The notes under the pieces are model-generated. The model was not told the origin of the DNA, did not search any database, and saw nothing but the letters and a program-made list of their open reading frames with translations. A program made the translations under genes and the position numbers. From positions 1,535,697 through 1,599,696 of the forward strand of contig OY282371.1 of assembly GCA_958295715.1 (NCBI GenBank): DNA of 64,000 bases, in the 5' to 3' direction. The stretch is from an uncultured Dehalococcoidia bacterium. GTDB taxonomy: Bacteria > Chloroflexota > Dehalococcoidia > Lucifugimonadales > GCA-2712585. Shown piece by piece: positions 21,170 through 55,865 of this stretch; position 1 is the first letter of the stretch; each line of letters opens with the position of its first letter.

Positions 21170-22690
21170 ATGACTACCCCCCCACCCCCTCAATCCGGCG
21201 CCGGTCTTCACAACAAGGTCTCCCTATTCGCCTACCTGTTTCTGTGCCTAAACGTACTCATCTTCAGCTTCCTCATCGCCGCCAACCCGGAGGCGGCCCG
21301 CGGGCTGGCCTGGGAAGACTCCTGGGTGGAGAGCCTCACCGCGCTGTGGTTCCTCCTGGCGGGCGTCCTGCTTTTCGCCGCGGCTTGGAAGGAGCCGGGC
21401 CTCTTCCGGCGCTGTGTCTATATCCTTGGCGGCCTGGCGATGGTCTTCGTGGTCGGCGAGGAGGTCAGTTGGGGACAGCGCGTCTTCGGGTTTGAGACGC
21501 CCGGCTTCTTGGCGTCCTTGAACGAGCAGAACGAATTCACAGTCCACAACACCGCCAACGGACTGTTAACCCTTGTCTACCTGAACGGCGGGCTGCTCCT
21601 GTGCATGGCGACCTGCGCGGCCTTCTTTTGCCGGAAAGACCGGCTTTTCGGGATTCCCCTCCCCTCAGTCCTGCTGATGCTGGGCCTTCTGATAATCCTT
21701 TCCTATGAGTCGGGGGCGTGGCTCAGCGACGCCTTGGGGACGAGCTTCAGAGAATACTTGAGGGACATTAGAAGGTCCTTCGGATTCATCGTGATTGAGG
21801 AAAAGGCCCTGCTGCTGCTCTTTTTCATCTTCACCCTGTTTGCGGGGCGGGTGAAACTGGTCGTCGCTTCCGTCGCGACCCTCGCCCTCGTCTTCGCCCT
21901 CTCATACGTCAACTATGAGAACGTGAACTACGTCAACAGGATTGATCGCGGAAGCATGTTTGAGATACGCGAGTATCTGTTCGCCATCGCCTGCTTCTTC
22001 TACTCTTTGGAACTGGCCCTGGCTCAGGGACCGTTGGCGGCCATCTTGCGGAAGCCCTTTAGCCGCCTGAAACTGCCGGAGGGACGGGTCCCCCTCTGGC
22101 TGATGGCCTGCTCTCTGGTAATCGCAGGCAGCGCCGCGTTAATGCTCTTCCAGTTTTTCAACGCCGGGTCCCAAGCCGACGCCCCCCAAGCCGACGCCCC
22201 CCAAGCTGACGTCATCAATGAAGCGCCCCGGCCAGTCACAGACGCCGAGCCCCAAGCCGGCGCCCCCCAAGCTGACGCCCCCCAAGCTGACGTCATCAAT
22301 GAGGCGAACCGGTCAATCTCGGCCGCCGAGCCCCTCATCCGCTCCACCTTTAACGTCTATCTCATCGAGGACGAGTTGATCTACGCCAAGGAGCCCTGCG
22401 CCCCCGCCGACACGGAGGCGGCCTTCTTCCTGCACCTGTACCCGGTTGACGCGAACGACCTCCCCGGCCCCCGCCGGCAATACGGCTACGACAACCTGGA
22501 CTTTCGCTTTGCAGACCTCACCGGCGGCGCGGCTTCAGGCGGGAAGTGTCTGGCGATTAAACCACTCCCGGGGTATGCTATCTCCGAAATCCTGACAGGC
22601 CAGTTCGTGGAAACCGAAGGCGGCTCCACCCACCGCCTCTGGGAGGAGAAGTTCCTACTTGATTCGGCAAAATCAGGGGCGGCAGAATGA
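21170..22690 (+). CDS. Type C membrane protein 1 (GEExSWGQR family) with GFDNLDF domain
   Basis: Start ATG 21170 (GAGGG 4 nt upstream) begins MTTPPPPQSGAGLHNKVSLF; the open frame further upstream overlaps the flippase and is not needed. About 506 residues: 8-9 membrane segments over residues 15-330; the motif GEEVSWGQRVFGFETP with downstream NEQNEFTVHN near 96-128; a low-complexity linker rich in QADAP repeats (about 335-380); and a C-terminal GFDNLDF domain (about 390-500) with FNVYLIEDELIYAKEPCAPADTE, YGYDNLDF, SGGKC and LTGQF. No enzyme is assigned. The membrane family recurs in the next three genes and at 39241-41037. Confidence 0.85.
   Translation: MTTPPPPQSGAGLHNKVSLFAYLFLCLNVLIFSFLIAANPEAARGLAWEDSWVESLTALWFLLAGVLLFAAAWKEPGLFRRCVYILGGLAMVFVVGEEVSWGQRVFGFETPGFLASLNEQNEFTVHNTANGLLTLVYLNGGLLLCMATCAAFFCRKDRLFGIPLPSVLLMLGLLIILSYESGAWLSDALGTSFREYLRDIRRSFGFIVIEEKALLLLFFIFTLFAGRVKLVVASVATLALVFALSYVNYENVNYVNRIDRGSMFEIREYLFAIACFFYSLELALAQGPLAAILRKPFSRLKLPEGRVPLWLMACSLVIAGSAALMLFQFFNAGSQADAPQADAPQADVINEAPRPVTDAEPQAGAPQADAPQADVINEANRSISAAEPLIRSTFNVYLIEDELIYAKEPCAPADTEAAFFLHLYPVDANDLPGPRRQYGYDNLDFRFADLTGGAASGGKCLAIKPLPGYAISEILTGQFVETEGGSTHRLWEEKFLLDSAKSGAAE
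22171..22311 (+). repeat. QADAP-coding tandem repeat in type C linker
   Basis: A 15-bp unit coding for QADAP occurs twice and then runs into QADVINEA. After a 20-residue spacer the block appears again with QAGAP, QADAP and QADVINEA. The second block looks like a duplication of the first. The repeat lengthens the hinge between membrane part and C-terminal domain; the following paralogues have much shorter hinges. Confidence 0.8.
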
Positions 22691-24110
22691 GGAAGCCAAG
22701 CCCGTCATAACCGGTTCCCCGCCCCCCACCCGACCCGCGACCGGTCTTCACAACAAGGTCTCCCTATTCGCCTACCTCTTTGTCTGTCTAAACGTACTCA
22801 TCTTTAGCTTCCTCCTCGCCGCCAACCCGGGGCTAGTCAGCAGACTGATCCGGGAAGACTACTGGGTGGAGTATCTCACCCCGGCATGGTTCCTCCTGGC
22901 GGGCCTCCTGCTCTTTGTCATCGCCTGGAAGGAGGGGAGCCTATTCCGGCGCTGCGTATACATTCTCGGCGGCCTAGCGATGGTGTTCGCAGCCGGCGAG
23001 GAGATCAGTTGGGGGCAGCGCGTCTTCGGGTTTGCCACGCCCGATTTCTTGGCGTCCTTGAACATACAGAACGAATTCACAGTCCACAATATCATCTATG
23101 GCTTGTTCGCCTCGGTCTACCTGAACGGCGCGCTGCTCCTGTGCATGGCGACCTGCGCGGCCTTCTTTTGCCGGAAAGACCGGCTTTTCGGGATTCCCCT
23201 CCCGTCGGTCTTGCTGATGCTGGGCCTTCTGATAATGCTTTCCTATGAGTCGGGGCCGTGGCTCACAAACACCCTGGGAACGAGCTTCAGCGAATACTTG
23301 ACGGACGTCAGAAGGTCCTTCGGATTCATCGTGATTGAGGAAAAAGCCCTGCTGCTGCTCTTTTTCATCTTCGCCCTGTTCGCGGGGCGGGTGAAACTGG
23401 TCGTCGCTTCCGCCGCGGCCCTCGCCATCGTCTTCGCCCTCTCATACGTCAACTATGAGAACGTGCACCACCTCGACAGGTTTGGTCGTGTACGCCTGTT
23501 TGAGATACGCGAGTATCTGTTCGCCGCCGGCTGCTTCTTCTACTCTTTGGAACTGGCCCTGGCTCAGGGACCGTTGACGGCCATCTTGCGGAAGCCCTTC
23601 AGCCGCCTGAGGCTGCCGGAGAGACGGGTCCCCCTCTGGCCGGCGGCCTGCTCACTGGTAATCGCAGGCAGCGCGGCGTTAATGCTCTTCCAGTTCTTCA
23701 TCTCCAGGTCCCAGACCACCGCCATTGAGGCGACATACCGGTCAATCTCAGCCGCCGAGCCCCTAATCCGCTCCACCTTTGACGTCTATCTCATCGAGAA
23801 CGAGTTGATCTACACCAAGGATCCCTGCGCCCCCGCCGACACGGAGGCGGCCTTCTTTCTGCACCTGTACCTGGTTGACGCGAACGACCTCCCCGGCCCC
23901 CGCAAACAGCACGGTTTCGACAACCGTGACTTTCAATTTGACCACTACGCCGCGGCCTCAGGCGAGAAGTGTCTGGCGATTAGACCGCTCCTGGAGTATG
24001 CTATCTCCGAAATCAGGACGGGCCAGTACGTGACTGTGGACGGTGACTACGACCACCTCTGGGAGGGGAAGATCCTTCTTGATTCGGCAAAATCAGGGGC
24101 GGCAGAATGA
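22659..24110 (+). CDS. Type C membrane protein 2 with GFDNLDF domain
   Basis: The 483-codon frame repeats the type C plan: GLHNKVSLF, GEEISWGQRVFGFATP, NIQNEFTVHN, about eight membrane segments, then a GFDNLDF-type domain (FDVYLIENELIYTKDPCAPADTE, HGFDNRDF, SGEKC, RTGQY). The start is problematic. The ATG overlapping the upstream stop (22687) runs only seven codons (MRKPSPS) to TAA. In the productive frame the only nearby start is TTG 22659, inside the upstream gene's end, with GGGAGGAG 8 nt upstream. DNA identity with the neighbours is very high. Function unknown. Confidence 0.82.
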   Translation: MIRQNQGRQNEEAKPVITGSPPPTRPATGLHNKVSLFAYLFVCLNVLIFSFLLAANPGLVSRLIREDYWVEYLTPAWFLLAGLLLFVIAWKEGSLFRRCVYILGGLAMVFAAGEEISWGQRVFGFATPDFLASLNIQNEFTVHNIIYGLFASVYLNGALLLCMATCAAFFCRKDRLFGIPLPSVLLMLGLLIMLSYESGPWLTNTLGTSFSEYLTDVRRSFGFIVIEEKALLLLFFIFALFAGRVKLVVASAAALAIVFALSYVNYENVHHLDRFGRVRLFEIREYLFAAGCFFYSLELALAQGPLTAILRKPFSRLRLPERRVPLWPAACSLVIAGSAALMLFQFFISRSQTTAIEATYRSISAAEPLIRSTFDVYLIENELIYTKDPCAPADTEAAFFLHLYLVDANDLPGPRKQHGFDNRDFQFDHYAAASGEKCLAIRPLLEYAISEIRTGQYVTVDGDYDHLWEGKILLDSAKSGAAE

Positions 24111-25533: not shown

Positions 25534-26440
25534 GGAGGCCACGCCCATCATAACCGGTTCCCGCCCCCAAAGGGACGGCCCGGGCGGGGTCTCGCTCTAC
25601 ACCAAGGCGTCCATCCTTGGGGCCGTCCTTCTTTTCCTCAACCTTGCCGTGTTAAACGCCCTGACCGTCTTCGACCCGGCCGTTTACCGCGTTCTGACGT
25701 GGGAAAACTATCCCATTGAGAGCAGCACGGCCTTCCTGTTTTTCCTAACCGCCCTAACGCTGCTGGCAATCGCGGCCCTGGGGCGGGGCCTGCCCGGCCG
25801 GTGGCTCTACCCCCTTGGCGCGCTGGTCTTTCTGTTCGCCGCCGGTGAGGAGCTCAGTTGGGGACAGCATATATTCGGGTTTGAATCGCCCGGCTTTTTT
25901 CGCGACCAAAATTATCAAGGCGAGTTCAACTTTCACAACCTAGAAGGGGTTAGGCTTTACTACGTCTACAGCGCGGTAAAGCTGCTCCTCTGCGCCGTGA
26001 CCACCGCGGCCTATTTCGCCCGCAAACCCGGCTTCTTGGGAGTTCCATTTCCGTCAATCCTGCTCATCTTCTGCTTCTTTCTGGTGTACGCCTATCCCCA
26101 CGCCTATGGCTTCTCAACGCTGGGCTTCACCCTAGACCACCTGCTGCTGCTGATTTTCGCCGCCTACGCGTGGTTTTCCAAGAAGTGGTGGCTGCTTGCC
26201 CTGTCCGCCCTGTTCCTCGCCACCCTGTTTCTCCAGAGATACTTCTTTGACACCTACGTGGAAGGTCGCGTGCCTCCGAACATTTGGGAGGGAAGCGAAT
26301 ACCTGTTCAGCATCGCCTGCCTCGTCTACGCCGGCGAACTTCTGCTCACCCACCGGGCCGTGGTGGAGAGAAACGGCCGCGCCGCTCTCCGGAGAATCCT
26401 TTGGGGAAGGCGACTGCCGGGCCGGGCCCGCCGGGGTTGA
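25466..26440 (+). CDS. Type C membrane protein 4, lacking the GFDNLDF domain
   Basis: The 324-codon frame keeps the membrane core: GEELSWGQHIFGFESP, NYQGEFNFHN and eight hydrophobic segments. It diverges strongly from copies 1-3 outside the motif and ends in basic residues without the C-terminal domain. This separates the two modules: the GEExSWGQ core is the constant part and the domain an optional addition. Starts at GTG 25466 or TTG 25502 both overlap the preceding gene; the overlapping ATG reads seven codons (MRRPRPS) to TAA. It ends 44 bp before the converging type A gene. Confidence 0.78.
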   Translation: MTTTTSGRGRSFLIQQNQGRPNEEATPIITGSRPQRDGPGGVSLYTKASILGAVLLFLNLAVLNALTVFDPAVYRVLTWENYPIESSTAFLFFLTALTLLAIAALGRGLPGRWLYPLGALVFLFAAGEELSWGQHIFGFESPGFFRDQNYQGEFNFHNLEGVRLYYVYSAVKLLLCAVTTAAYFARKPGFLGVPFPSILLIFCFFLVYAYPHAYGFSTLGFTLDHLLLLIFAAYAWFSKKWWLLALSALFLATLFLQRYFFDTYVEGRVPPNIWEGSEYLFSIACLVYAGELLLTHRAVVERNGRAALRRILWGRRLPGRARRG

Positions 26441-26467
26441 TCCGCCGGGGTTGCCCCGCCGAGGTTA
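26428..26467. repeat. Three 12-bp units at the convergent gene ends
   Basis: CCGCCGGGGTTG occurs at 26428 and 26442, with the variant CCGCCGAGGTTA at 26456 (period 14 bp). It covers the stop of type C4 and the gap before the converging type A1 stop. No stem with a T-run is seen, so a terminator function is not supported. Confidence 0.5.
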
Positions 26468-39240: not shown

Positions 39241-41037
39241 TCATTCTACCCCCCCTGATTTTCCCGTATCAAGAAGGAACTCCCCCTCCCAGAGGTGGTT
39301 GTAGCCGCCGTCCACGGACAGGAACTGGCCTGTCGAGATTTCAGAGATATCATACTCAGGAAGGGCCACCGTCGCCACGCATCTCTCGCCGGATATCGCG
39401 CCGCGCCTGTCGAAAGGGAAGTCCAGGTTGTCGAAGCCATGCCCCCGGCGATGGCCGGGGAGGTCCTTCACGTTAACCGGGTACAGGTGCAGAAAGAACT
39501 TCGCCTCCGTGTCGGCGGGAGCGCACGGCTCCTTGACGTAGACCAGCGTGTCCTCGCTCAGATACACGTCAAAGGTGGAGCGGATGACCGGCTCGCCGGC
39601 CGCGATTAACCGGCGCGCCTCCTTAATGGCGTCAGCTTGGCGGGCGGCGCTGAAATCCCCCGCCGCGTCAAAGAGTATCTCCCCCTCCCAGAGGTGGTTG
39701 TAGCGGCCGTCCACGGACGTGAACTGGCCTGTCTTGATTCTGGAGATATCATATCCCGGGAGCGGCCTAGTCACCAGACACTTCCCGTCAAAGGCCACGC
39801 CGCTGGCCGTGTCGATAACGTGAAAGTCCAGGTTGTCGAAGCCCTGACGCTGGGCGGGACCGGGGAGGTCCTTCTCGTCAACCGGGTACAGGTGCAGGAA
39901 GAAGATCGTCTCCATGTCGGCGTAGGCGCACGGCTCCTTGAAGTAGATCAATTCGTCCTCAATGAGATAGACGTCAAAGGTGGAGCGGATTAGGGGCTCG
40001 TGGGCCGAGATTGACCGGTATGTCTGCCGGATGTCGTCAGCTTGGGCCCCGGCGTTGAGATTCCCCCAAAATATCAACCCGGCGCTGCCTGTGATTACCA
40101 GAGAGCAGGCCGCCAGCCAGAGGGGGACCCGTCTCCCCGGCAGTTTCAGGCGGCTGAAGGGCCCTCGCAAGACAGGCCCTAACCGTCCCTGGGCCAGGGC
40201 CAGCTCCAAAGAGTAGAGAAGGCAGCCTATGCCGAACAGATATTCGCGCGTCTCGATTATCGCTCCAAGGGCATCAAGGGTCTCGTAACCAGCGAAGTAC
40301 ACGTGGTGATAGTTCACGTATGCGTGAGCGAAGACGAGGCCGAAGGCGGCGGCGGAAGCGACGGCCAGTTTGACTTGCCTGGAACACAAGGCGAAGATGA
40401 GAAAGAGCAGTATCAGCCCCATCTCCTTGAATATGATAAAGCCTAAGAAGTGTCCGAAGCCCTCTCTGGCCCCAAAGGAAAGCAGGGTTAGAAAGCCCAG
40501 GGTCAGCAGGGCCGACGGCAGCGGGACCCCGAAAAGCCGGTCCTTCCGGCTAAAGAAGGCCGCGCTGGCCGCTATGCACAGGAACAGGCCGACGTTCCTA
40601 TAGCTGGGGGGGAAGTTCCCATAGTAGACATTGTGGGCGTTGAATTCGTTCTGCGAATTCAAGGTCATCAAGAATTCGGGCGTCGCAAACCCGAATATGC
40701 GCTGTCCCCAACTGATCTCCTCACCGGCCCCGAAGAGCATGGCCATGCCGCCGAGGATGTACAGGGACCGCCGGAGGAGGCTCCCCTCCCTCCAGGCCGT
40801 GACGAAGAACAGGCTGCCCCCCAGGAAGAGCCATACCGCGGTGAGGCTCTCCAGCCACGAGTCTTCCCGGGTGATCCCAAAAGATACCCCCGGGGCGCCG
40901 GCGATGAGAGCGCTAAAGAGAATTATGTTTAGACAGAGAAAGAGCCAGCCAAAGAGGGAGACCTTGTTGTCAAGACCGGCGCCGGGCGGGTCGGGGGGGG
41001 GGGGGGGGTAGAGGTATGATGGGCTTGACTTCATCAT
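39241..41037 (-). CDS. Type C membrane protein 5 with two GFDNLDF domains
   Basis: 598 residues. Start ATG 41037 or 41034 (MMKSSPSYLY), then a poly-C-encoded PPPPP run, GLDNKVSLF, about eight membrane segments with GEEISWGQRIFGFATP and NSQNEFNAHN, and two C-terminal domains (about 345-465 and 485-598). Both domains keep both cysteines: KEPCAYADME with DGKC, and KEPCAPADTE with GERC. This copy shows the intact form of the leader that ends at TAA in copies 2-4: TAC replaces TAA at codon 8-9. With 16 C the frame is continuous. It lies on the opposite strand from the other four type C genes. Confidence 0.85.
   Translation of the reverse strand: MMKSSPSYLYPPPPPDPPGAGLDNKVSLFGWLFLCLNIILFSALIAGAPGVSFGITREDSWLESLTAVWLFLGGSLFFVTAWREGSLLRRSLYILGGMAMLFGAGEEISWGQRIFGFATPEFLMTLNSQNEFNAHNVYYGNFPPSYRNVGLFLCIAASAAFFSRKDRLFGVPLPSALLTLGFLTLLSFGAREGFGHFLGFIIFKEMGLILLFLIFALCSRQVKLAVASAAAFGLVFAHAYVNYHHVYFAGYETLDALGAIIETREYLFGIGCLLYSLELALAQGRLGPVLRGPFSRLKLPGRRVPLWLAACSLVITGSAGLIFWGNLNAGAQADDIRQTYRSISAHEPLIRSTFDVYLIEDELIYFKEPCAYADMETIFFLHLYPVDEKDLPGPAQRQGFDNLDFHVIDTASGVAFDGKCLVTRPLPGYDISRIKTGQFTSVDGRYNHLWEGEILFDAAGDFSAARQADAIKEARRLIAAGEPVIRSTFDVYLSEDTLVYVKEPCAPADTEAKFFLHLYPVNVKDLPGHRRGHGFDNLDFPFDRRGAISGERCVATVALPEYDISEISTGQFLSVDGGYNHLWEGEFLLDTGKSGGVE
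40993..41008 (-). repeat. Poly-G/poly-C tract of 16 bases in type C5 leader
   Basis: Sixteen consecutive G on the + strand are read as C in the first 16 codons of the type C5 gene. The present length keeps the frame open. A change by one or two bases would end translation before the first membrane segment. Confidence 0.85.
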
Positions 41038-41063: not shown

Positions 41064-42497
41064 TTATTTTCCCGCATCAAGGAGGAACTCCTCCTCCCAG
41101 AGCCGGTGGGTGGAGCCGCCTTCGGTTTCCACGTATTGGCCTGTCTTGATTTCAGAGATATCATACTCAGGGAGGTCCACCGTCGCCACGCATCTCTCAC
41201 CGGATGTCAGACCAAGGTTGGCGAACCTGAAGTCCAGGTTGTCGAAGCCGTACTGCTTCCGATTGTCGGGAAGGTCGTTCACGTCAACCGGGTACAGGTG
41301 CAGGAAGAACGTCGCCTCCGTGTCGGCCGGGGCGCACGGCTCCTTGACGTAGACTAGCGTGTCCTCGCTCAGATACACGTCAAAGCCGGAGCGTATCACC
41401 GGCTCGCCGGCCGCGATTAACCGGCGCGCCTCGTTGATGGCGTCGGCTTGGCCTAGCGCGTCAAAGAGTATCTCCACCTCCCAGAGCCGGTGGGTGGAGC
41501 CGCCTTCGGTTTCCACGTATTGGCCTGTCTTGATTTCAGAGATATCATACTCAGGGAGGTCCACCGTCGCCACGCATCTCTCACCGGATGTCAGACCGAG
41601 GTTGGCGAACCTGAAGTCCAGGTTGTCGAAGCCGTACTGCTTCCGATTGTCGGGAAGGTCATCCACGTCAACCGGGTACAGGTGCAGGAAGAAGACCGCC
41701 TCCGTGTCCGCCGGGGCGCACGGCTCCTTGGCGTAGACCAGCGCGTCCTCGCTCAGATACACGTCGAAGTCGGACACAAGGGCATCGAAGGCCGACAGCC
41801 GTGCGGCGGCGCTGTCAAAGGCTGCATTCACCCTGAATATGGCCCCGTCGGACAGTTCCGCCACCGGCTCCAAGGGGAGGGGCGTCTCCATCTGAAGGAT
41901 GGTGCAAACCATTTCGCGGTCTTCGACGTGGCCGACCCATACGACGAGCTTTTCGGGTTCGTCATACTTCCGGGATTTCTCGACGGCCCGCTCGAACCAG
42001 GCCGGGCAATCGTAGACGTTATGTAGGTCCCGCCGCGTCACGGGAACCCAGGACACCCGCCTTGCCGGAACTCCCGCGTTCCACCGGAGCACGTTGGGGA
42101 TGTTGCTGTAGTACCGGCCCGGAGAGGGGTTATTTCGCACGTATTCCACCACCTCAGAGTCCGCCCAGTAGGCCGTGTTTAGACTCCCGTCTACGTACCC
42201 CGAATCCAGGGCCCCGGCGGTCGCCCGCAGATTCTGCCACGCCGACGCGCCAATGTGCCAGGAGACGCCTATAAGCGTGAGGACAACCAGTGTCCGCCAG
42301 ACGGCGGGCGCCCTCACCATCGCCTTGACGCGCAGCAGACCGGCCAGCCGGGAGCCGCCGGGACGCGAGCATACATCCCGGCGCCTGCCGCGCAACAGTC
42401 CATCCAGCCAGAAGGCCGCGACCACTAGCAGCGGCGCGTAGACCGGCGTCAGGTACCGGCTGTCTACGGCCTGCCAGGCCATGAAGGGCGTCGCCAC
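41064..42497 (-). CDS. Type D membrane protein 3, C-terminal part: last membrane segments and two GFDNLDF domains
   Basis: This 477-codon frame starts inside a larger gene. Its true upstream continuation (YVFWVFSLAYLGIIA before ATPFMAWQAVDSRYL) joins the N-terminal part at the 19-base tract 42560-42578. It contains two or three membrane segments, an extracytoplasmic part (to ~220) and two adjacent domains that are nearly identical (FDVYLSEDALVYAKEPCAP and FDVYLSEDTLVYVKEPCAP, each with YGFDNLDF and SGERC). The ATG at 42497 is probably not a natural start. With one base fewer in the tract the gene 43491-41064 would be a single protein of about 808 residues. Confidence 0.82.
   Translation of the reverse strand: MATPFMAWQAVDSRYLTPVYAPLLVVAAFWLDGLLRGRRRDVCSRPGGSRLAGLLRVKAMVRAPAVWRTLVVLTLIGVSWHIGASAWQNLRATAGALDSGYVDGSLNTAYWADSEVVEYVRNNPSPGRYYSNIPNVLRWNAGVPARRVSWVPVTRRDLHNVYDCPAWFERAVEKSRKYDEPEKLVVWVGHVEDREMVCTILQMETPLPLEPVAELSDGAIFRVNAAFDSAAARLSAFDALVSDFDVYLSEDALVYAKEPCAPADTEAVFFLHLYPVDVDDLPDNRKQYGFDNLDFRFANLGLTSGERCVATVDLPEYDISEIKTGQYVETEGGSTHRLWEVEILFDALGQADAINEARRLIAAGEPVIRSGFDVYLSEDTLVYVKEPCAPADTEATFFLHLYPVDVNDLPDNRKQYGFDNLDFRFANLGLTSGERCVATVDLPEYDISEIKTGQYVETEGGSTHRLWEEEFLLDAGK
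41093..41741 (-). repeat. 384-bp tandem duplication of the GFDNLDF domain
   Basis: 41097-41357 and 41481-41741 are direct repeats offset by 384 bp (128 codons) with only a handful of substitutions. They encode the adjacent domains of the type D3 protein. The similarity is far above that between domains of different genes, so the duplication is recent or kept uniform by gene conversion. Confidence 0.88.
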
Positions 42498-43491
42498 GGC
42501 GATAATTCCAAGGTACGCCAGCGAGAAGACCCAGAAGACGTAAGAGGCCCTTCCCGGTCGGGGGGGGGGGGGGGGGGGTGATGAGGAAAACCGCCGCCAG
42601 AACCAGCGCCAGGCCGGCTATCAGCCACGGCGAGCGGTGCAAGTACCACTGGGGCTGGGACAGCAGCGGGTCGGCCCACCCCTCGAAGACCACGACTATC
42701 TGGTACAGCGAATCGGACAGGGGCTGCCCCGCGGCTTGCGATCTGTCCCCGGTGAGGGTTCCGGACACCAGTTGGTTGCGCGCCAGGGCCGCCGCCAGCG
42801 GGAGGGACGAGATGGCCCCGAAGACCAGGGTCTCCTTCAACCGCTCGCGTATCGGGACGCGCCGGCGCAAGAGGAGCATGAGGAGTAGGGAGAAGATGAG
42901 GGCGACTCCCATGTACCGCGTCAGCGCGGCTAGGGCCGTGAATACGGCGGAAAGGGCCAGGGCCGGCTTGCCGCTTCTCCCGGCCAGGAAAGACTCCATC
43001 GGCATCAGGGCGAGAAGGATGAACAGGCTGAAGAGGGGTTCGCTCAAGAGGGTCGAAGCGAAGTGGGCCAGGGGGAGGCCGGCCATGACCGCCACCGCCG
43101 CTCCCAAGGCCACCAGCCGCGACTTGAGACGCCGGCTCAGCCAGAGGCCCGTCGCCAGGATGATTAGGCCGAAGGCGGCGGCGTTCAGGAGCCGGCCTCC
43201 GTCCACCGGCTCGATGCCCAACAGGCTCAGGAAGGCCATCGCCATGGAGAAGAAGGGCGCGAAGAGGACCATTTGCTCGCCGCCGGGGGACAGCAGACCC
43301 TCCCCGGCGGTCAGGCTCTCGGCCGCCGCTAGGTAGTTGAAGGCGTCGCCCAGGGCCGCCGCGCCGTAGGTGGACGTGCGGACCAGGATATGGGCCGCGC
43401 CCAGGATGGCGACGAGGGCTATGAGGGCGGGAAATGCGTAGGTCCTACCCATCGCCGCGCGCCCACTTAACAGCGCCGTCCAAATCTTCAT
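42154..43491 (-). CDS. Type D membrane protein 3, N-terminal GT39-like part, frameshifted at poly-C
   Basis: Start ATG 43491 (MKIWTALLSGRA) overlaps the type A3 stop by 4 nt; a TTG two codons earlier is also open. GDAFNYLAAAESLTAGEGLL, LLSEPLFSLFILLALMP and LTRYMGVALIFSLLLML are characteristic of PMT_2/GT39 membrane glycosyltransferases. Nine or so membrane segments run to FLIT at residue ~310. The 19-C tract then reads PPPPPP and shifts the frame; everything beyond is unrelated sequence. Removing one C restores PGRASYVFWVFSLAYLGII and the downstream half. The gene is therefore OFF as assembled, or the tract length is miscalled. Confidence 0.82.
   Translation of the reverse strand: MKIWTALLSGRAAMGRTYAFPALIALVAILGAAHILVRTSTYGAAALGDAFNYLAAAESLTAGEGLLSPGGEQMVLFAPFFSMAMAFLSLLGIEPVDGGRLLNAAAFGLIILATGLWLSRRLKSRLVALGAAVAVMAGLPLAHFASTLLSEPLFSLFILLALMPMESFLAGRSGKPALALSAVFTALAALTRYMGVALIFSLLLMLLLRRRVPIRERLKETLVFGAISSLPLAAALARNQLVSGTLTGDRSQAAGQPLSDSLYQIVVVFEGWADPLLSQPQWYLHRSPWLIAGLALVLAAVFLITPPPPPPTGKGLLRLLGLLAGVPWNYRRGDALHGLAGRRQPVPDAGLRAAASGRGLLAGWTVARQAPGCMLASRRLPAGRSAARQGDGEGARRLADTGCPHAYRRLLAHWRVGVAESAGDRRGPGFGVRRRESKHGLLGGL
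42560..42578 (-). repeat. Poly-G/poly-C tract of 19 bases inside type D3
   Basis: Nineteen consecutive G on the + strand (C in the coding strand) lie between two membrane segments of the type D3 gene. Nineteen breaks the frame; 18 or 21 restores it. The length and the one-base excess are the same as at 16860-16878. Confidence 0.88.
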
Positions 43492-45833
43492 CGCCAAGGG
43501 AACTCCGCCTCCCAGAGGTGGTGGTAAACGCCGTCCACTCGCACGTACTGGCCGGTCTTCACGCGGGCGATGTCATAGTCGGGAAGGTCGCGCACGACTA
43601 CGGGCCCCTCGATTAGCTGAAGCTCGGCGTCGGCGCGGAAGTCCAGGTTGTCGAAGCCGTGCTCCCGGCGATCGCCGGGGAGGTCGTTCACGTCAACCGG
43701 GTACAGGTGCAGGAAGAAGCGCGTGTGGGCGTCTCTGGGCTGCACGGGCAGGGAGGGCGCGGTCATCGCCTCGACCCGTTCGCCGCGGCCGTTGGTGTAG
43801 CTCGCAGAGACCCGCAGTTGGTGGCCCTCGTCGTCGGCGGTGGGCGTGTAGATTCCATCGGCGTTGGGGTCGGGGGAACCGGATATGCTGGTCCAGCCCC
43901 CGGCGTGGCTGCCCCACTCCCACTGCCACGGGCTCCGGTCCGTGAAGCCGGCCCGGTGAATGGCAGGGGACAACGAGACGTAGAGCCGCTCGCCCGCCAC
44001 CGGGATATACTGCCCGACGAATTGGGCGTCTCTGCCCTCATCCCGGTTCCTGGCGTAAATCAGCCTGTTCCCACTGCGATACAGGTCATAATGGCCTTGG
44101 CCGCCGGCCACGCGCTTAGAGTTCATTATCATATCGTCTACCTGGCCGTTTACCAGCGCTGAATAGTCCTCCGGACGGTAGAGAAATATCTCCCTGTTTT
44201 CCGGCGTCAGCAGGGCGGGGCCGTCGACCCGCTGGCTCGAGATGAGATAGTCGTATGCGAAGGCGCTACTCCCCGCAGACCAATACAGTCCCAGCGCTCT
44301 CCCCGAAAGATAGTAGCTCTCCCCCCCGACTCTCCCAGGAAGCAGGTGGTAGGACGTTAGAAAGAAAACGCTCTCTCCCGGCTCTACTACTGTCCTGATG
44401 CGCTCAAAATCCGCAGCCACCGCTTCATGGAATTCAGCCGCCTGCCGGTCATAACCGGCCCGCCCCACCTGGAAGCCGGAGAGAACGAAGACCAGCAGCG
44501 CGGCGGCGGAGAGACCAAGAATGAGACGGCTGCCGGCTAATTCCCGCAGACGCGACAACCCCACTGCGAAGACGACCAGGGGGACACCGATGTAGAAAAC
44601 GCTCTCAAAATCGTGGATGGCGGTGTTGTGGCGCACCGGCAGCGCCCAGAAGAAGCCGGCGCTCACCAGGGTGGCCAGCAGCATTCTATGGCGGGAGACC
44701 AGCAACGCGACGACGGCGCCGCCCACGGCCAGCGCTCCGAAAATCACGCCGAGGTAGTCCATGCCCCAACCGCCCCAACCAATTGAGGGGTCGTCAAAGG
44801 GGTCAAGGGGGTCAAAGGGGCTGATGAGGACGGGCAGCGTGACTAAGGCGATGCGGTGGAACTGATGCTGTAGGAAGTTCCCCCATTCCAGAACCTCGGC
44901 GTAGGACTCCTTGAACCCGGTATCCACTCCAAGGCGGTACGTCATCGACTTCACCGTAGAAAGCTCAGCCAGCGGGACTTCACCGTCAAAGGCCCGGTAT
45001 TCGTTGGCCAAGTTGAAGGACAGGATAGCCGCGCCGAAAAGCAGGGCGCCAACGCCCAGCTTAAGGTAGCGGCTGGACGCCAGCGCGGCGGCCCAGCCCT
45101 TGACTCGCCTCGCCAAGGTCAGCCCGCCGGGGGCGGATTCCCGGCGCGCCCGGTAAAGCTCCCGCGCCAGGCCGAATACGACGAAGGGCAGCAGCAGCGC
45201 GTATACGTGCCAGCCCAATAGCAGGGCAATGCAGGCCTTGATGAGCAGCTGCCGGAAGCGGCCCTCTTGGACGAAGACAACCATGCCGTGGAAGGTCAGC
45301 AGCGTTCCGAAAAGGGAGATCCCGTTTTCGGGGGTTATCATGTCGTTGTAATACAGCAGATAGTAGGACGAGAAGGCCAGCAGTGTGGCGGTCAAGGCTG
45401 TCCACCGGTCGCCGGTGAGCCGGCAGAGAGACAGCCATACCACCACCGCGCTCCCAACGAAAAAGAGCAGAAACAGAATGCGGGCGGCGTATATCTTCCC
45501 CGCGAAGTCATCCCCGAAAGGCATGGTTGCCAGCTTTATTAGCCCATATCCGCCAATGGGAAAGCGGTTGTAAGGCGCGTATCCAGGAAGGCCGTCTCCC
45601 TCCAAGGTCTGATGATAGAACATCAGGAAGTTGTGTTCGGGGGATAGGTTCCCGGCTACCGACAAGTGGTTCGCCGACACCGCATTGTGGAGTCCCGGCC
45701 GGGAGAAAGAGTCCCTCCCGTCGTTGCCGAACAGGAATACCGTTGACAGGGCCAGCAGGAGAAGGGCCAGCGGCAGCCACGGGCGGAACCGTGCCCTCCG
45801 CGTCACCGCCGAAAGGCCCGCGGGAAGCCTCAT
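43488..45833 (-). CDS. Type A membrane protein 3: GT-C-like core, Ig-like domain, GFDNLDF domain
   Basis: About 781 residues from ATG 45833 (MRLPAGLSAVTRRARFRPWLPLA), which overlaps the type A4 stop by 4 nt. The membrane core matches A1, A2 and A4. The Ig-like module reads WQWEWGSHAGGWTSISGSP, slightly longer than in A1, and DEGHQLRVSASY. The end is the cysteine-free domain (DAHTRFFLHLYPVDVNDLP, HGFDNLDFRAD, TGQYVRVDG). It ends FPWR, shorter than the usual WQEGE, because its stop overlaps the type D3 start instead of an MRLP start. This suggests the D3 gene was spliced in behind it. Confidence 0.82.
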   Translation of the reverse strand: MRLPAGLSAVTRRARFRPWLPLALLLLALSTVFLFGNDGRDSFSRPGLHNAVSANHLSVAGNLSPEHNFLMFYHQTLEGDGLPGYAPYNRFPIGGYGLIKLATMPFGDDFAGKIYAARILFLLFFVGSAVVVWLSLCRLTGDRWTALTATLLAFSSYYLLYYNDMITPENGISLFGTLLTFHGMVVFVQEGRFRQLLIKACIALLLGWHVYALLLPFVVFGLARELYRARRESAPGGLTLARRVKGWAAALASSRYLKLGVGALLFGAAILSFNLANEYRAFDGEVPLAELSTVKSMTYRLGVDTGFKESYAEVLEWGNFLQHQFHRIALVTLPVLISPFDPLDPFDDPSIGWGGWGMDYLGVIFGALAVGGAVVALLVSRHRMLLATLVSAGFFWALPVRHNTAIHDFESVFYIGVPLVVFAVGLSRLRELAGSRLILGLSAAALLVFVLSGFQVGRAGYDRQAAEFHEAVAADFERIRTVVEPGESVFFLTSYHLLPGRVGGESYYLSGRALGLYWSAGSSAFAYDYLISSQRVDGPALLTPENREIFLYRPEDYSALVNGQVDDMIMNSKRVAGGQGHYDLYRSGNRLIYARNRDEGRDAQFVGQYIPVAGERLYVSLSPAIHRAGFTDRSPWQWEWGSHAGGWTSISGSPDPNADGIYTPTADDEGHQLRVSASYTNGRGERVEAMTAPSLPVQPRDAHTRFFLHLYPVDVNDLPGDRREHGFDNLDFRADAELQLIEGPVVVRDLPDYDIARVKTGQYVRVDGVYHHLWEAEFPWR

Positions 45834-48166: not shown

Positions 48167-48170
48167 TCCG

Positions 48171-51026: not shown

Positions 51027-53756
51027 TCACGGGAGGGGGAACTCCTTCGACCAGAGGACGGCGCCTCCTTCGCGTTGGCCGGCGCGGACACTGACGATGT
51101 CGTATTCCGGCAGGGCACGGACTGCCACGCATCTACCGCCCTCCCTCAGGCCATGCCATCGGAAGGCGAAGTCGAGGTTATCGAATCCGTCGGGCCGCCG
51201 GTTGTGGGGGAGGTCGTCAACGTTGGCGGGGAAGACGCGCAGAAAGAACTCGGATTCCGTGTCCTCCGCGGCGCACGGAGCCTTGACGAATACCAGACTC
51301 CCCTCGCCTAGATGGATGTCGAAGACGCCGCGGGCCGCCGGCTCGCCGGAAGTCGCCGACGATAGGGACGATAGATAGGCGTCAAACCGCCACCGGCTCC
51401 TCTCCAACCAGCCCTCCGCTTCCCAAAGGAGGTTCCCATCGCGGTCGACCTGTCCGGTTTGGATGGCGAACACGTCGTTACTCGGAAGCTGGCGCTCAGC
51501 CATGCAGGTCCCGTCATCCTTCCAGAAATTCACGTGCCATTCGAAATCCAGCGTGTCGCGTTCCGGCGTCCCACCTTCATAGGCCAACGAATAGACTATC
51601 AACGGGAACCGCGTAAGCCGCTCGTCCCCCCACGTGCAACTCCGGTTCTCATAGACCAGCCTGTTCCCTTGAAGATGCACGTCGTACTTGGAAGCGATGA
51701 TGCGGTCAGCTTCAGAAGGGCCGGTCTGCGCTGGTTCGGACGGCCTGGGAATCGCCGTCACCCGCTTGGCGGGGCTGCCAGAAGAGTAGGCCGAGGCGCG
51801 CGCCTGCGCCTGCACGGGTTCGGACGGCTTGGTGATGGCTGTCAGCCGGCTGCCGAGATGGTCCGTGTAGGGAACCGAAGCGCGCAGACGATGCCCCACG
51901 TCGGCAGCCGTGGGGACGTGCGCGTAGGTGGGACTCTGACCCGGCAGGCTCGTCCAGCCCAAGGCGTCGCTGCCCCTCTCCCACCGCCACCGTTCCCCGG
52001 CCACCCGCCGGCCGTAGGACTGGTTGAGGTAGGCGACGAAGGGTTTGCCCACCGCCGGGGCGCTGGAACTGAGGAACATGGCGGGCCGGGGCTCCCGGGA
52101 TTCGTGTTCCCGCAGGCGATACAGCTTGCCGTCCGCCAGCTCCGCCACCAATTCCAGCGAGGGCTCCTGAGACAAGGCCCTTTGGATATCTTCGTGCTCC
52201 TGGCGAGAGCATAGGCTCCAGTAGCCCCAATCGCTGAAATAGAGGACGTGCACGTCTCCGTCGTCATGGGCCCTCGCCAATGCGGACCGCAGACTATCCG
52301 GTTCACAGGGCAGCGCGGAGTGGCGCGCCGGGCCGCCGGCGTGCAGGGCCGTGGCGGGGTGGGCATTGCTCAGGGCCGATCCTGTGAGAGCCGCCTCCCG
52401 GAAGCGCCGCACGCTCTCCGAATCACTCCACCTCGGTTCGCCGTAGCCTTGCCGAAGGCCGGCGTTCCAGAGCGGTATCTCGCGTCCATGCTGCACAACC
52501 AGCCCGAGGGACTGGAGGGACAGGCCCAACATCAGCACGGCGGCAAGAATCCTCACCCCCCGTATCCCTGAAACTCCACCCAGGCGTGGAAGGATTTCTC
52601 CCGGCGCCTGTTTCCGCGCGTACCGGAGGGCGCCGTCCATGAGCAGCAGGGCCGCGAACAGGAGGGGGATATACACGGGAGCGAGGAATCTCTGAGACAA
52701 TCCGTAATGGACGCCTCCCGACATCATTGAGGCGACGAGCAGCGCCAGGTACACGAGGGCAAAACCGGCGCATACGCGCAAGGGGACCCAGGCGAAGTGC
52801 GGAGGGCCGGGGGCGTCCCTTTTCCGGCTCCATAGACGGTGGAACCCATAGCCGGCCGCCATCACGAGGGCCAACAGGACCGGGGCCGTCAACCCGATGA
52901 GCCACCTGCCACTGGCGACGATTCGCAAGGCCTCCTCCACGATGAAGCCAAATGAGAAGATGCCCCAGCCCCTTTCGCCGGTGGCTGATCCGGCAACCAG
53001 ATAGTTCCGCAGTATCCACAGACCCAGAGGCGCCGCGGCGATGAGCGTATAAACGGCGACGCGCTTCATCCTTTCCCCCAGAGCGGCCCGCGCGGCAAGC
53101 AGCATCGGGACCGCCGCCAGGACCAGGGACGCGCCCAGGTAGCGGGTCATGCAGGCCAACGCGCTGAAGACCGCCGCCCAGATAAGGGACGCGCGCCCGC
53201 GTCCATCCAAATAGGCGTCTATCTGCGTCAGCGAAAGCGTTACGAATAGGATGAAAACCGAATCGCTCAGGGCCAAGGACGCCACGTCGGCGAGGGGGAA
53301 GGCGAGGGCGATGGAGAGGCAGCCCCACAGCCACAGGAACCGGGACCGCAGATGGCGCCGCATCCACCAACCCGCGACGAGAACGGTCAGCCCGAAGATG
53401 ACGGCGTTGAGGGGCCCGGCGACGGCGTAAGGGTCGAGCCCGGACAGCCCACCGGCGGCGAGCATCGCCGGATACAGCGGCGGCTGGTACACCAACGGGC
53501 CGCCGCCCAAGGTGACAAGACCATCGCCCGCCAGAAGACTGCGGGCCATGGCGACGTAGGAAACGGCGTCCACCCACATCACCGGCCCGTAGCTGGCCTG
53601 CCGCAGGAACACGAGGCCCGCGCCCAGGGCGGCAACGGCGGCGAGGAGTATCCTGTCCGGAGGCTCCTTACAGCCCGTGGTGAGCAGGAAGGTCACGGCC
53701 CGCCGGCCAGCTTCCCCCATATTTGTCGTCACGGCAGGGAAAACTCTTCTAACCAT
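51027..53756 (-). CDS. Type D membrane protein 1: GT39-like core, Ig-like domain, two GFDNLDF domains
   Basis: 909 residues. The core has ASYGPVMWVDAVSYVAMARSL, ALSDSVFILFVTLSLTQI and CMTRYLGASLVLAAVPML, as in PMT_2/GT39 enzymes. Membrane segments run to about residue 420. An Ig-like module follows (about 590-680: WRWERGSDALGWT, ADVGHRLRASVPY). Then a divergent domain copy (DVHLQGNRLVYENRSCTWGDE, FEWHVNFWKDDGTC, TGQVDRDGNLLWEAEG) and a standard one (VKAPCAAEDTE, DGFDNLDF, EGGRC) end the protein. Both copies keep a cysteine pair. ATG 53756 lies inside the restored end of the upstream type D2 gene. Confidence 0.85.
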   Translation of the reverse strand: MVRRVFPAVTTNMGEAGRRAVTFLLTTGCKEPPDRILLAAVAALGAGLVFLRQASYGPVMWVDAVSYVAMARSLLAGDGLVTLGGGPLVYQPPLYPAMLAAGGLSGLDPYAVAGPLNAVIFGLTVLVAGWWMRRHLRSRFLWLWGCLSIALAFPLADVASLALSDSVFILFVTLSLTQIDAYLDGRGRASLIWAAVFSALACMTRYLGASLVLAAVPMLLAARAALGERMKRVAVYTLIAAAPLGLWILRNYLVAGSATGERGWGIFSFGFIVEEALRIVASGRWLIGLTAPVLLALVMAAGYGFHRLWSRKRDAPGPPHFAWVPLRVCAGFALVYLALLVASMMSGGVHYGLSQRFLAPVYIPLLFAALLLMDGALRYARKQAPGEILPRLGGVSGIRGVRILAAVLMLGLSLQSLGLVVQHGREIPLWNAGLRQGYGEPRWSDSESVRRFREAALTGSALSNAHPATALHAGGPARHSALPCEPDSLRSALARAHDDGDVHVLYFSDWGYWSLCSRQEHEDIQRALSQEPSLELVAELADGKLYRLREHESREPRPAMFLSSSAPAVGKPFVAYLNQSYGRRVAGERWRWERGSDALGWTSLPGQSPTYAHVPTAADVGHRLRASVPYTDHLGSRLTAITKPSEPVQAQARASAYSSGSPAKRVTAIPRPSEPAQTGPSEADRIIASKYDVHLQGNRLVYENRSCTWGDERLTRFPLIVYSLAYEGGTPERDTLDFEWHVNFWKDDGTCMAERQLPSNDVFAIQTGQVDRDGNLLWEAEGWLERSRWRFDAYLSSLSSATSGEPAARGVFDIHLGEGSLVFVKAPCAAEDTESEFFLRVFPANVDDLPHNRRPDGFDNLDFAFRWHGLREGGRCVAVRALPEYDIVSVRAGQREGGAVLWSKEFPLP

Positions 53757-53834
53757 ACCACGCTGCGTCCCGAGCGCTGGCCGGCGCGTATCTCAACGAC
53801 GTCGTATTCCGGCAAGGCGCGGACTGCCACGCAT

Positions 53835-55865
53835 CTACCCCCCTCCCCCGCGCAGGCCATGCCATTGAAAGGCGAAGTCGAGGTTGTCGAACCCGTTGGG
53901 CCGACGGTTGTGGGGGAGGTCGTCCACGTTGGCGGGGAAGATGAGGCCCGCTTCGGAAAGGCCCGCCTGCACGGGTTTCGACGGCTTGGTGGTCGCCTTC
54001 ACCCGGTCGCCGAGGTGGTCTGTGTAGTAGACCGAAGCGCGCAGGCGATGCCCGACGTCGGCGGCCGTTGGGCTGTACGCGTAGGTGGGAGATGGGATGG
54101 GGAGGCTCGTCCAGCCGCCGGCGTCGTCGCCGCGCTCCCACCGCCACGGTTCCCCGGCCACCCGCCGGCCGTAGGACTTTTTGAAACGGGCCACGAAGGG
54201 CTCCCCCTCCACCGGAGGGCCAGAACTGAGGAACATGGCGGGCCGGGACTCCAGGGACTCGCGTTGGATAAGGCGATACAGCTTGCCATCCGCCAGTTCC
54301 GCGACCGGTTCCAGGAAGGGGTCCTGGGGCAGGTGGCTCCCAAGGGCCTCGTCCTCCCACTGGGAGCATTCTCCCCACGGGTCATTGAAATGGAGGACAT
54401 ACGCCTCTTCGCCGTCAACGGCATCCGACCATGCGAACAGCAGATGGTCGGGTTCGCATGGCAGCGCGTAATGGCGTCGCAGACTGCCGGCGTGCAAAGC
54501 CGTAACGGGCCGGGCGTTGCTCCAGATAGAGCCTGTCAGGGCCGCCTCCCGGATATGCCCGATGCTCTCCGAATCCCTCCACCGCGGCTCGGCGTACGCC
54601 TGTTTTGCGCCACCGGTCCAGCGCGGCATCTCGCGTCCATGGAGCGCGACCAGCCAGACCCCTTGCAGGGACAAGGCCAACAGCAGGATGGCCGCAAGGC
54701 TCAACCGCCGCCCGCCCAGCGCGATTCCACGAACTCCCCACGGCGCCTGTTTCCGCGCATACCGGAGGGCGGCGTCCATGAGAAGCAGGGCCGCGAACAG
54801 GAGGGGGATATACACGGGAACGAGGAATCTCCAAGCCAACCCACTCCAAGTGCCCCCCGACATCATCGAGACGACGAGGAGCCCCAGGTAGGCGAGGGCA
54901 AAACCGGCGCATACGCGCAGGGGGACCCAGACGACGTCAGGGGCGTCCCTTTTCCGGCTCCGCAGGCGGTGGAATCCGTGGCCGGCGGCCATCACGAGGG
55001 CCAACAGGACGGGGGCCGTCAGCCCGACGAGCCACCAGTCATTGACGGCGATTCGCAAGGCCTCGCCCACAATGAAGCCGAATGAGTAAAAGACCTTGCC
55101 TCTGTCGCCGGTGGTTGAGCCGACAGCCAGATAGTTCCTCAGCATCCACAAAGCCAGCGGCGACGCGGCGATGAGCGTATAGACGGCGACGCGCTTCACC
55201 CTCTCTCCCGGCGCAATCCTGGCCGCAAGCAGCGCCGGGACCACCGCCAGTATCACGGAAACGCCCATGTAGCGGGTCAGGCAGGCCAGGGCGCTGAAGG
55301 CCGCCGCCCAGAACAGGGACGCGCGCCCGCGGCCATCCAGATGGGCGTCTATCTGCGTCAGCGCGAGGGTTACGAACAGGATGAAGGCCGGCTCGGACAT
55401 GGCCTCGGAGGCGATTTCGGCGAGGGGGAGGGCAAGGGCTACCGAGAGACATCCCCACAACCACAGGAACCGGGTCTGCACGTGGCGCCGCATCCACCAG
55501 CCCGCGACCAGAACGGTCAGCCCGGAGATGACGGCGTTGAGGGGCCCGGCTATGGCCCAGGGGTCAAGCCCGGACAGTCCCCCGCCGGCCAGCATCATCG
55601 GATACAGCGGCGGCCAGGTAACGAAAGGGCCAAGCATGTCTAGAAAGCCCTCACCCGCCAGGAGATTGCGGGCCGTCGCGACGTAGTTTACGGAGTCCCA
55701 GCCCATGGCCGGCCCATAGCTGGCCTGCCGCAGGAAAACGAGGCCGGCGCCCAGGATGGCGGCCACGGCGAGGAGGACCCTGTCTAGGGTCTCGTTCCGG
55801 TCCGTGGAGAACAGGAAGGTCATGGCCCGGTGGCCGGCTAGCCGCACGGGGTCCGTCTCCGGCAC
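53835..55865 (-). CDS. Type D membrane protein 2: GT39-like core, Ig-like domain, frameshifted GFDNLDF domain
   Basis: The frame starts at GTG 55865 (ATG 55823, MTFLFSTDRNE, is an alternative) and gives 676 residues like type D1: ASYGPAMGWDSVNYVATARNL, CLTRYMGVSVILAVVPAL, membrane segments to ~420 and an Ig-like module (WRWERGDDAGGWT). It then enters a 5'-shortened domain (ANVDDLPHNRRPNGFDNLDF) and stops at TAG directly after a GGGGGAGGGGGG tract. Dropping one G gives GRCVAVRALPEYDVVEIRAGQ and ends FSLP with TGA at 53731-53729. Sequencing error, decay or a slippage switch are all possible. Confidence 0.83.
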   Translation of the reverse strand: MPETDPVRLAGHRAMTFLFSTDRNETLDRVLLAVAAILGAGLVFLRQASYGPAMGWDSVNYVATARNLLAGEGFLDMLGPFVTWPPLYPMMLAGGGLSGLDPWAIAGPLNAVISGLTVLVAGWWMRRHVQTRFLWLWGCLSVALALPLAEIASEAMSEPAFILFVTLALTQIDAHLDGRGRASLFWAAAFSALACLTRYMGVSVILAVVPALLAARIAPGERVKRVAVYTLIAASPLALWMLRNYLAVGSTTGDRGKVFYSFGFIVGEALRIAVNDWWLVGLTAPVLLALVMAAGHGFHRLRSRKRDAPDVVWVPLRVCAGFALAYLGLLVVSMMSGGTWSGLAWRFLVPVYIPLLFAALLLMDAALRYARKQAPWGVRGIALGGRRLSLAAILLLALSLQGVWLVALHGREMPRWTGGAKQAYAEPRWRDSESIGHIREAALTGSIWSNARPVTALHAGSLRRHYALPCEPDHLLFAWSDAVDGEEAYVLHFNDPWGECSQWEDEALGSHLPQDPFLEPVAELADGKLYRLIQRESLESRPAMFLSSGPPVEGEPFVARFKKSYGRRVAGEPWRWERGDDAGGWTSLPIPSPTYAYSPTAADVGHRLRASVYYTDHLGDRVKATTKPSKPVQAGLSEAGLIFPANVDDLPHNRRPNGFDNLDFAFQWHGLRGGGG
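53838..53849 (-). repeat. Interrupted C6-T-C5 (G5-A-G6) tract causing the type D2 frameshift
   Basis: The coding strand reads G5-A-G6 directly before TAG. Loss of one G from the six-G run reopens the frame for the last ~35 residues. The type D1 copy has a more mixed sequence at the same place and is in frame. Confidence 0.7.

Follow-up and report, generated by a model that had tools for sequence, protein, structure and literature searches.

A recurrent C-terminal domain, modelled as a β-sandwich, on predicted extracytoplasmic enzymes of a Dehalococcoidia genome and its exchange between bacterial phyla

Introduction

What does one small domain contribute when it ends membrane proteins that otherwise have little in common? 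The question is raised by a stretch of 64,000 nucleotides from an uncultured Dehalococcoidia bacterium (contig OY282371.1, hereafter the window), in which a domain of about 105 amino acids with a GFDNLDF motif recurs on four types of protein (A, B, C and D). Here we describe the domain family, its partner enzymes, its distribution and the homopolymer tracts that accompany its genes. Our preferred reading, held tentatively and at somewhat less than an even chance, is that of a C-terminal glycan-targeting module, comparable to a carbohydrate-binding module (CBM), on phase-variable enzymes that would decorate a surface glycan.

Results

Copies, fold and conservation of the domain

A degenerate DNA pattern for GFDNLDF (at most three mismatches) matches the window 17 times, against a mean of 0.17 and a maximum of 2 in shuffled sequences. 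Searching the genome with an 11-copy profile yields 32 segments, 19 of them in the window; because a frame break divides the D3 domain into two segments, these 19 represent 18 copies, and the genome holds about 31 in total. Seventeen window copies are spread across 14 proteins (A five, B three, C four, D five; Table 1) and one is an orphan, precisely the tally of 18 copies, 14 proteins and one orphan made in the first-pass annotation, whose span of 21170–55865 leaves the orphan outside. Orphan remnants are among the forms in which the domain occurs.

Table 1 Features of the window (positions in nucleotides from its first letter)
Feature	Position	Strand	Domain copies	Basis and remarks
Orphan remnant, C-terminal two thirds of domain, no scaffold	4584–4772	-		Profile E 1.7e-18; 83-aa open frame
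Poly-G tract of 19, 5′ end of sulfotransferase-like gene 16878–17561; putative phase-variable switch	16860–16878	+		Tract search; gene so called by the look of its sequence; Pfam and NCBIfam give no match
A1, type A membrane protein	21026–22690	+	22340–22663 (C-terminal)	Sequence and profile match
A2, type A	22659–24110	+	23769–24083	Sequence and profile match
A3, type A	24043–25533	+	25192–25506	Sequence and profile match
Apparent type A scaffold without domain	25466–26440	+		Sequence (EEISWGQ-like motif, read by eye); no profile match
C1, type C	26485–28842	-	26497–26742 (second two thirds), preceded by Ig-like insert	Profile match
B1, type B (GT-C/Agl23-like)	28839–30803	-	28851–29168	Profile and family searches
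Methyltransferase	30855–31697	-		Pfam
C2, type C	31770–34082	-	31782–32030	Profile match
B2, type B	34079–36070	-	34091–34405	Profile match
B3, type B	36052–38079	-	36067–36378	Profile match
Deacetylase-like gene	38076–39233	-		Weak HfsH match, E 0.0011
A4, type A	39241–41037	-	39667–39987, 39268–39582 (tandem)	Profile match
Homopolymer of 16 (coding strand poly-C), codon 10 of A4	40993–41008	-		Tract search
D1, type D; frames 43497–42154 and 42497–41064	41064–43497	-	41460–41774, 41076–41393 (tandem)	Sequence and profile
Homopolymer of 19 at D1 frame break	42560–42578	-		Tract search
C3, type C	43488–45866	-	43494–43748	Profile match
C4, type C	45830–48199	-	45842–46099	Profile match
O-antigen-ligase-like protein with Ig-like segment	49172–50818	-		PF04932, 7.5e-10
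D2, type D (PMT-like)	51027–53756	-	51414–51692 (first, divergent), 51033–51332 (canonical)	Family and profile matches
D3, type D	53735–55865	-	53841–53942 and 53735–53851 (broken by frame change)	Profile match

Profile searches against Pfam, NCBIfam and PDB sequences gave no credible match, so the early impression that the domain belongs to no named family holds; at E ≤ 1, none of 121 members matches Pfam FN3 and no Pfam CBM family is hit, and matches in PHROGs are at chance level. Lacking a family model, annotation pipelines overlook the domain despite dozens of copies in some genomes. AlphaFold2 models it as a fibronectin type III (FN3)/Ig-like β-sandwich (pLDDT 92.7, pTM 0.83). The best structural neighbours of the model are FN3/Ig-like folds as well (Z 7.6, TM about 0.4–0.5, none at E ≤ 0.001), and since such a Z lies within the range of common arrangements we claim no homology from structure; these folds are in any case all-purpose, a point against the glycan-targeting reading. 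A pair of cysteines, retained by 232 of 234 distinct full copies, probably forms a disulfide. Between FFLH and GFDNLDF the sequence varies unusually little. In the type C copies both cysteines are missing and the profile match is limited to the second two thirds; here strand 2 of the domain seems to be followed by an inserted Ig-like segment, and the model of this tail with the insert inside the domain, built from four sequences only, reaches a pLDDT of 49.7.

Position and partner enzymes

In 169 of 173 proteins no more than 16 residues follow the domain, which stands in one to three tandem copies, and none of the 173 has a transmembrane segment after it. The first-pass annotation had it always after the membrane part of four membrane scaffolds. 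This order has exceptions: in L128, from the window's own genome, the domain sits between hydrophobic segments, and in L151 it lies mid-protein. Nor is the domain confined to four scaffolds: elsewhere the partners also include sugar dehydrogenases of the GSDH type (match 2e-47), some with cytochrome c and some lacking it, ASST arylsulfotransferases (1.3e-24) and SGNH/AlgX-like hydrolases, and 13 of 18 GSDH-type proteins carry a lipobox-like motif. Distant relatives of the domain, each single-copy, lie at the ends of three GT-C-like proteins from Acidobacteriota (AftA_N match 3.5e-5).

Lipobox-bearing dehydrogenases, secreted enzyme partners and the cysteine pair together place the domain, as predicted from sequence, outside the cytoplasm, with partners acting beyond the cytoplasmic membrane, as had been proposed. 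A positive-inside test of hydropathy and charge gave the expected topology for some scaffolds and the contrary for type B, so the location is not argued from it.

The copies also look shuffled among scaffolds, a suspicion that the wider sample bears out. For 74 of 155 C-terminal copies the nearest relative sits on another scaffold, and median identity is 0.69 within a genome across scaffolds, compared with 0.62–0.66 on the same scaffold in other genomes.

Glycan genes in the neighbourhood

The proposed link to a glycan assembly system survives in part. A targeted search shows that the window's methyltransferase, deacetylase-like, GT4, flippase and O-antigen-ligase genes have counterparts next to domain genes of other genomes, several of them in other phyla. 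The methyltransferase does so in four phyla (13 of 68 domain loci; ten best at 71–73% identity), the deacetylase-like gene in Latescibacteria and Dehalococcoidia (15 of 68 loci, up to 82% identity), and a homologue of the O-antigen-ligase-like protein adjoins domain genes in Latescibacteria (71% identity over 97% of its length). However, an untargeted Pfam survey of neighbours found no general excess of glycan genes over random regions, and many copies are dispersed. Glycan genes travel with domain genes in part.

Distribution and transfer between phyla

Twenty genomes from six phyla hold 17–66 copies each. Among evenly drawn relatives the domain is found in 1 of 195 Pseudomonadales, 1 of 321 Gammaproteobacteria and 1 of 198 Binatota (in each case the starting genome only), in 2 of 64 Latescibacterota (both from the starting set), in 5 of 247 Acidobacteriota and in 7 of 301 genomes of the window's own phylum, Chloroflexota; two members of the window genome's genus are devoid of it. 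Domain genes of Pseudomonadales and Latescibacteria share 88.9% DNA identity over 3832 bp, those of Latescibacteria and Bryobacterales 91.2% over 1988 bp, and phyla are mixed in the domain tree at forks with 96–100% SH-aLRT support. With DNA identity so high over kilobases, the genes have moved recently between phyla. Neither phages nor plasmids emerged as carriers: none of 30 pattern matches in viral contigs was a relative, and plasmids gave no match. The mix of taxa suggests that the carriers co-occur, probably in sponges; a literature search found no text naming the domain or these genome accessions.

Homopolymer tracts and a shared leader

Poly-G/C tracts of at least nine bases occur at 5.0 per 100 kb in domain regions and 0.68 in random regions, a conservative comparison because the controls are not fully domain-free (L172 overlaps one copy). 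Domain-bearing frames hold 37 of the 52 tracts but 33% of the DNA (p 1.5e-8), and tract lengths, 9–24 bases, differ between copies. A leader of 75 bases, which includes a poly-G tract and is conserved between tandem genes, is present in 14 of 21 domain-rich genomes and in none of 22 others. In the window, D1 is divided between two reading frames at its 19-base poly-G tract. Long homopolymers within coding regions or at 5′ ends, enriched over background, are the mark of contingency genes, and the domain genes are by this token putatively phase-variable, with tracts that would switch the enzymes; the ON or OFF state of any single gene is uncertain, because tract lengths in the assembly may reflect sequencing errors.

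Discussion

Taken together, these observations are consistent with an extracytoplasmic β-sandwich, probably held by a disulfide, at the C-terminus of enzymes acting outside the cytoplasmic membrane. A GT-C glycosyltransferase probably carried it first, at its C-terminal end. In bacteria from at least six phyla that occur together, probably in sponges, the domain would then have multiplied and moved onto the sugar dehydrogenase, arylsulfotransferase, SGNH/AlgX-like hydrolase and type A membrane protein; it has crossed between phyla, partly along with genes of glycan assembly. Most likely it would bind a shared glycan, extracytoplasmic or lipid-linked, and gather different decorating enzymes there in the manner of a CBM; poly-G/C tracts would toggle individual enzymes and generate combinatorial variation of the surface glycan.

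A docking role, in which the domain would bring proteins onto a common protein scaffold such as a multi-enzyme envelope complex, is the strongest competitor, unlikely as we consider it. FN3/Ig-like folds typically mediate protein–protein contacts, the carriers are very different enzymes and the FFLH-to-GFDNLDF stretch is unusually well conserved. Yet the analysis turned up no single partner gene inherited together with the domain, the partner enzymes plausibly have one glycan substrate in common, and passage across phyla with different envelopes favours a self-contained function. Contact with host or other cells, in adhesion or evasion, would suit the seemingly habitat-tied distribution and the account of sponge symbionts in which FN3 and eukaryotic-like genes are enriched and laterally transferred among them (PMC8163846). 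We regard it as improbable: most carriers are polytopic membrane enzymes, diderm phyla would keep the domain in the periplasm beyond the host's reach, and a large adhesin architecture is seen in L151 only. Quite improbable, too, is that the domain is mainly a product of recombination with a minor structural role, repeated 3′ ends and the shared 5′ leader allowing genes to form arrays. That even distant copies so strongly retain the cysteine pair and the core motif points to selection on the protein, and single-copy relatives exist without arrays, even if homogenisation across scaffolds within genomes, the leader between tandem genes and the orphan remnants are what such a process would leave behind. 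A C-terminal sorting or secretion signal, like type IX secretion tails or LPXTG/PEP-CTERM, would explain the nearly constant position on many kinds of extracytoplasmic protein but is very improbable, given the lack of a transmembrane or charged tail after the domain in 173 proteins and of any Pfam or NCBIfam match to a sorting domain, the occurrence of the domain on polytopic proteins, as tandem copies and inside a loop, and the differing envelopes of the carrier phyla.

The glycan-targeting reading extends to a community-wide one, which is possible but rather doubtful: unrelated symbionts of one habitat, from at least six phyla, would trade and reshuffle switchable cassettes of leader, enzyme and tail that decorate a common surface glycan. 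If so, a single stock of switchable enzymes for the surface glycan would serve all of these phyla. Within a mixed community, probably that of a sponge, the outer glycan would seem to be under strong selection, to judge by the all-or-none distribution, the recent transfer between phyla and the poly-G/C tracts. Gene exchange in such communities could be followed with the domain as a marker, and it offers a way to learn how symbionts of very different kinds arrive at similar surfaces and vary them.

Comparison with known systems

GT-C enzymes with C-terminal extracytoplasmic β-sandwich or CBM domains include the mycobacterial Emb/Aft family, ArnT and oligosaccharyltransferases. The proteins described here share with them the order of a polytopic GT-C-like enzyme followed by an external β-rich domain, and distant members weakly match AftA_N; in contrast, the domain has no sequence match to their C-terminal domains, also ends dehydrogenases, sulfotransferases and hydrolases, and reaches 66 copies per genome. 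Like CAZy-type CBMs it is fused to glycan-active enzymes (GT-C/PMT-like, sugar dehydrogenase, SGNH/AlgX-like and arylsulfotransferase, some of these assignments being weak). Its modelled fold comes closest to FN3/Ig-like domains (no neighbour at E ≤ 0.001), but it differs from Pfam FN3 in sequence and in its conserved cysteine pair and GFDNLDF loop. Phase-variable glycan loci with poly-G/C contingency genes are known from Neisseria, Haemophilus and Campylobacter (PMC8355987, PMC2831843), where long tracts likewise lie within or 5′ of surface-glycan genes, whereas here they are tied to one C-terminal module, a shared leader and genes exchanged across phyla. A parallel is offered by the transferred genes of sponge symbionts (PMC8163846), which also crossed distant lineages recently, are thought important for sponge life and include FN3 proteins; Pfam-based annotation would not have shown a domain that matches no Pfam family, and the high copy number and phase-variation tracts described here are additional to the part of that account considered.

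Domain family and predicted fold

The roughly 105-residue tail domain is marked by its GFDNLDF motif, which has 17 matches in the window against 0.17 expected by chance. A profile search of the 2.40-Mb genome returned 32 segments, 19 of which lie in the window and represent 18 copies, confirming, small corrections aside, the copy count and coordinates of the first-pass annotation. That it recognised no named family is likewise borne out: Pfam gave no better-than-chance match to 11 copies or to 121 diverse copies, and NCBIfam, PHROGs and PDB sequences yielded no credible match. AlphaFold2, given 121 sequences, yields a confident, mostly beta model (pLDDT 92.7, pTM 0.83). The folds nearest to it, at middling scores (best Z 7.6), are Ig-like beta-sandwiches such as FN3, cytokine-receptor and beta-galactosidase domains. 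One orphan domain remnant adjoins a probable DNA defence/modification island, predicted to comprise a helicase with a PLD-like start, a large methylase and two small genes.

Two cysteines are invariant in the alignment of 11 full copies and both are kept in 232 of 234 distinct full copies; we infer that they form a disulfide and that the domain lies in an oxidising compartment. The type C copies of the window have lost both, and an Ig-like segment replaces the loop of the first. The segment seems to be an insertion inside the domain, for which the fold prediction is too weak to serve as proof. Similar segments occur elsewhere (Table), apparently in a large loop of the O-antigen-ligase-like proteins. 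Some other proteins have the Ig-like segment at their end in place of the domain, as if the two were mutually replaceable modules.

Table. Coordinates of features in the window and in other genomic regions (L handles)
Feature	Region	Coordinates	Remark
DNA defence/modification island (probable)	window	4827-13831	
Poly-G/C tract	window	16860-16878	at sulfotransferase-like gene
Poly-G/C tract	window	40993-41008	in A4 (type A, 39241..41037, -)
Poly-G/C tract	window	42560-42578	in D1 (type D, 41064..43497, -)
GINT1-related protein	window	17628-18542	PF24793, 1e-37
Type C protein	window	26485-28842	Ig-like segment apparently inside domain, after YRSGNRLIYA
Type C protein	window	31770-34082	same
Type C protein	window	43488-45866	same
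Type C protein	window	45830-48199	same
O-antigen-ligase-like protein	window	49172-50818	Ig-like segment apparently in large loop
O-antigen-ligase-like protein	L064	1515-3167	same
Protein ending in Ig-like segment	L082	8221-10314	in place of domain
Protein ending in Ig-like segment	L047	1204-3219	in place of domain
Polytopic protein	L128 (window organism's own genome, C1:812000-826000)	5751-8153	domain not terminal
Leader	L042	8385	
Leader	L094	8505	
Leader	L142	1888	
Leader	L088	8377	

Partner proteins and cellular location

A scan of genome contigs gave 293 candidate stretches, the best 80 of which form 68 loci. The 173 proteins carry one to three tandem copies; in 169 of them no more than 16 residues separate the end of the domain from the C-terminus, and none has a TM segment C-terminal of it. 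Eleven scaffold groups bear the domain, including GT-C/PMT-like proteins, type A, glucose/sorbosone dehydrogenases with or without cytochrome c, arylsulfotransferase and SGNH/AlgX-like proteins; 13 of 18 dehydrogenase-type proteins have a lipobox-like motif. From these partners and motifs it follows that the module is extracytoplasmic, as first proposed, and that it is not limited to membrane proteins. One polytopic protein of the window organism has the domain between hydrophobic segments.

Distribution, transfer and shuffling

The named carriers in the best 80 of 293 stretches all come from one MAG record style (OY282xxx, CATQH). Carriers are Dehalococcoidia, Caldilineaceae, Entotheonella, Bryobacterales, Latescibacteria, Binatia, Pseudomonadales and one further gammaproteobacterium, spanning Chloroflexota, Tectimicrobiota, Acidobacteriota, Latescibacterota, Binatota and Pseudomonadota, a mix typical of microbe-rich marine sponges. 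Each of 20 genomes of this style holds 17-66 copies. Relatives drawn evenly are almost without the domain: Pseudomonadales 1/195, Gammaproteobacteria 1/321, Binatota 1/198, Acidobacteriota 5/247, Latescibacterota 2/64, Tectimicrobiota 1/5 and the window's own phylum 7/301, where the copies of some carriers are few and divergent. Eight of 117 relatives carry it, each in at least 18 copies, and two genus mates have none. In three Acidobacteriota genomes a single distant copy ends a GT-C-like protein, which suggests that the domain originated as the tail of such a protein.

At the DNA level, a domain-bearing region of a Pseudomonadales chromosome is 88.9% identical to one of a Latescibacteria chromosome over 3.8 kb; for Latescibacteria and Bryobacterales the figure is 91.2% over 2.0 kb. 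Identities of scaffold proteins from different phyla go up to 70-86%, and the type B (GT-C-like) tree mixes phyla at forks with 96-100% support. Domains on different scaffolds of the same genome are more alike (median identity 0.69, up to 0.96) than those on the same scaffold in other genomes (0.62-0.66), and for 74 of 155 copies the closest relative sits on a different scaffold. Scaffolds of one genome have therefore traded the domain with each other, a shuffling that the first-pass annotation had supposed.

Poly-G/C tracts and a conserved leader

The window has three poly-G/C tracts of 16-19 bases, at a sulfotransferase-like gene, in A4 and in D1, which have the look of switches for phase variation of these genes. 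In D1 the reading frame changes at the tract, where the two parts of the gene meet. Because assembled homopolymer lengths are error-prone, one cannot be sure of the state of an individual gene. Tracts of at least 9 bases are about seven times denser in domain loci than in 18 regions drawn at random from the same genomes, and 37 of 52 fall in frames that encode the domain (p 1.5e-8). They occur repeatedly in two settings: at one fixed position within type B genes, and in a leader that separates tandem genes. This leader of about 75 bases, conserved across phyla and scaffold types and with a poly-G tract at its end, follows closely on the stop codon of one domain and precedes the next gene (examples in the Table, among others). 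It is present in 14 of 21 domain-rich genomes versus 0 of 22 others.

Link to glycan genes

The window's domain genes lie amid GTs, a flippase, an O-antigen-ligase-like protein and other glycan genes. Homologues of the window's methyltransferase adjoin domain genes in 13 of 68 loci (four phyla), those of its deacetylase-like gene in 15 of 68 (up to 82%), of its flippase in Pseudomonadales (78%) and of its O-antigen ligase in Latescibacteria (71%); the 18 random regions have no such homologue. Clustering in glycan loci is seen in this targeted search but not in an untargeted Pfam survey of domain-gene neighbours, which found no overall glycan excess; only some of the copies therefore show the link. 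A further window protein is related to the N-terminal region of plant GINT1, the glucosamine inositolphosphorylceramide transferase, and to our knowledge such a protein is unusual in bacteria.

Proposed role and comparison with known systems

We tentatively suggest, at slightly less than an even chance, that the module would bring extracytoplasmic enzymes to a common glycan, while phase variation would choose which of them act. The main rival to targeting to a glycan is docking of the domain on a protein scaffold. In the literature searched, with most subscription journals outside its scope, we found no description of the domain family, its partners or the leader. Sponge-enriched genes, among them those for fibronectin-III proteins, are reported to have passed between distant symbionts (PMC8163846), and phase variation of surface genes by poly-G/C tracts is well known; what appears to be new is the domain family, its partner repertoire, the leader and their combination.
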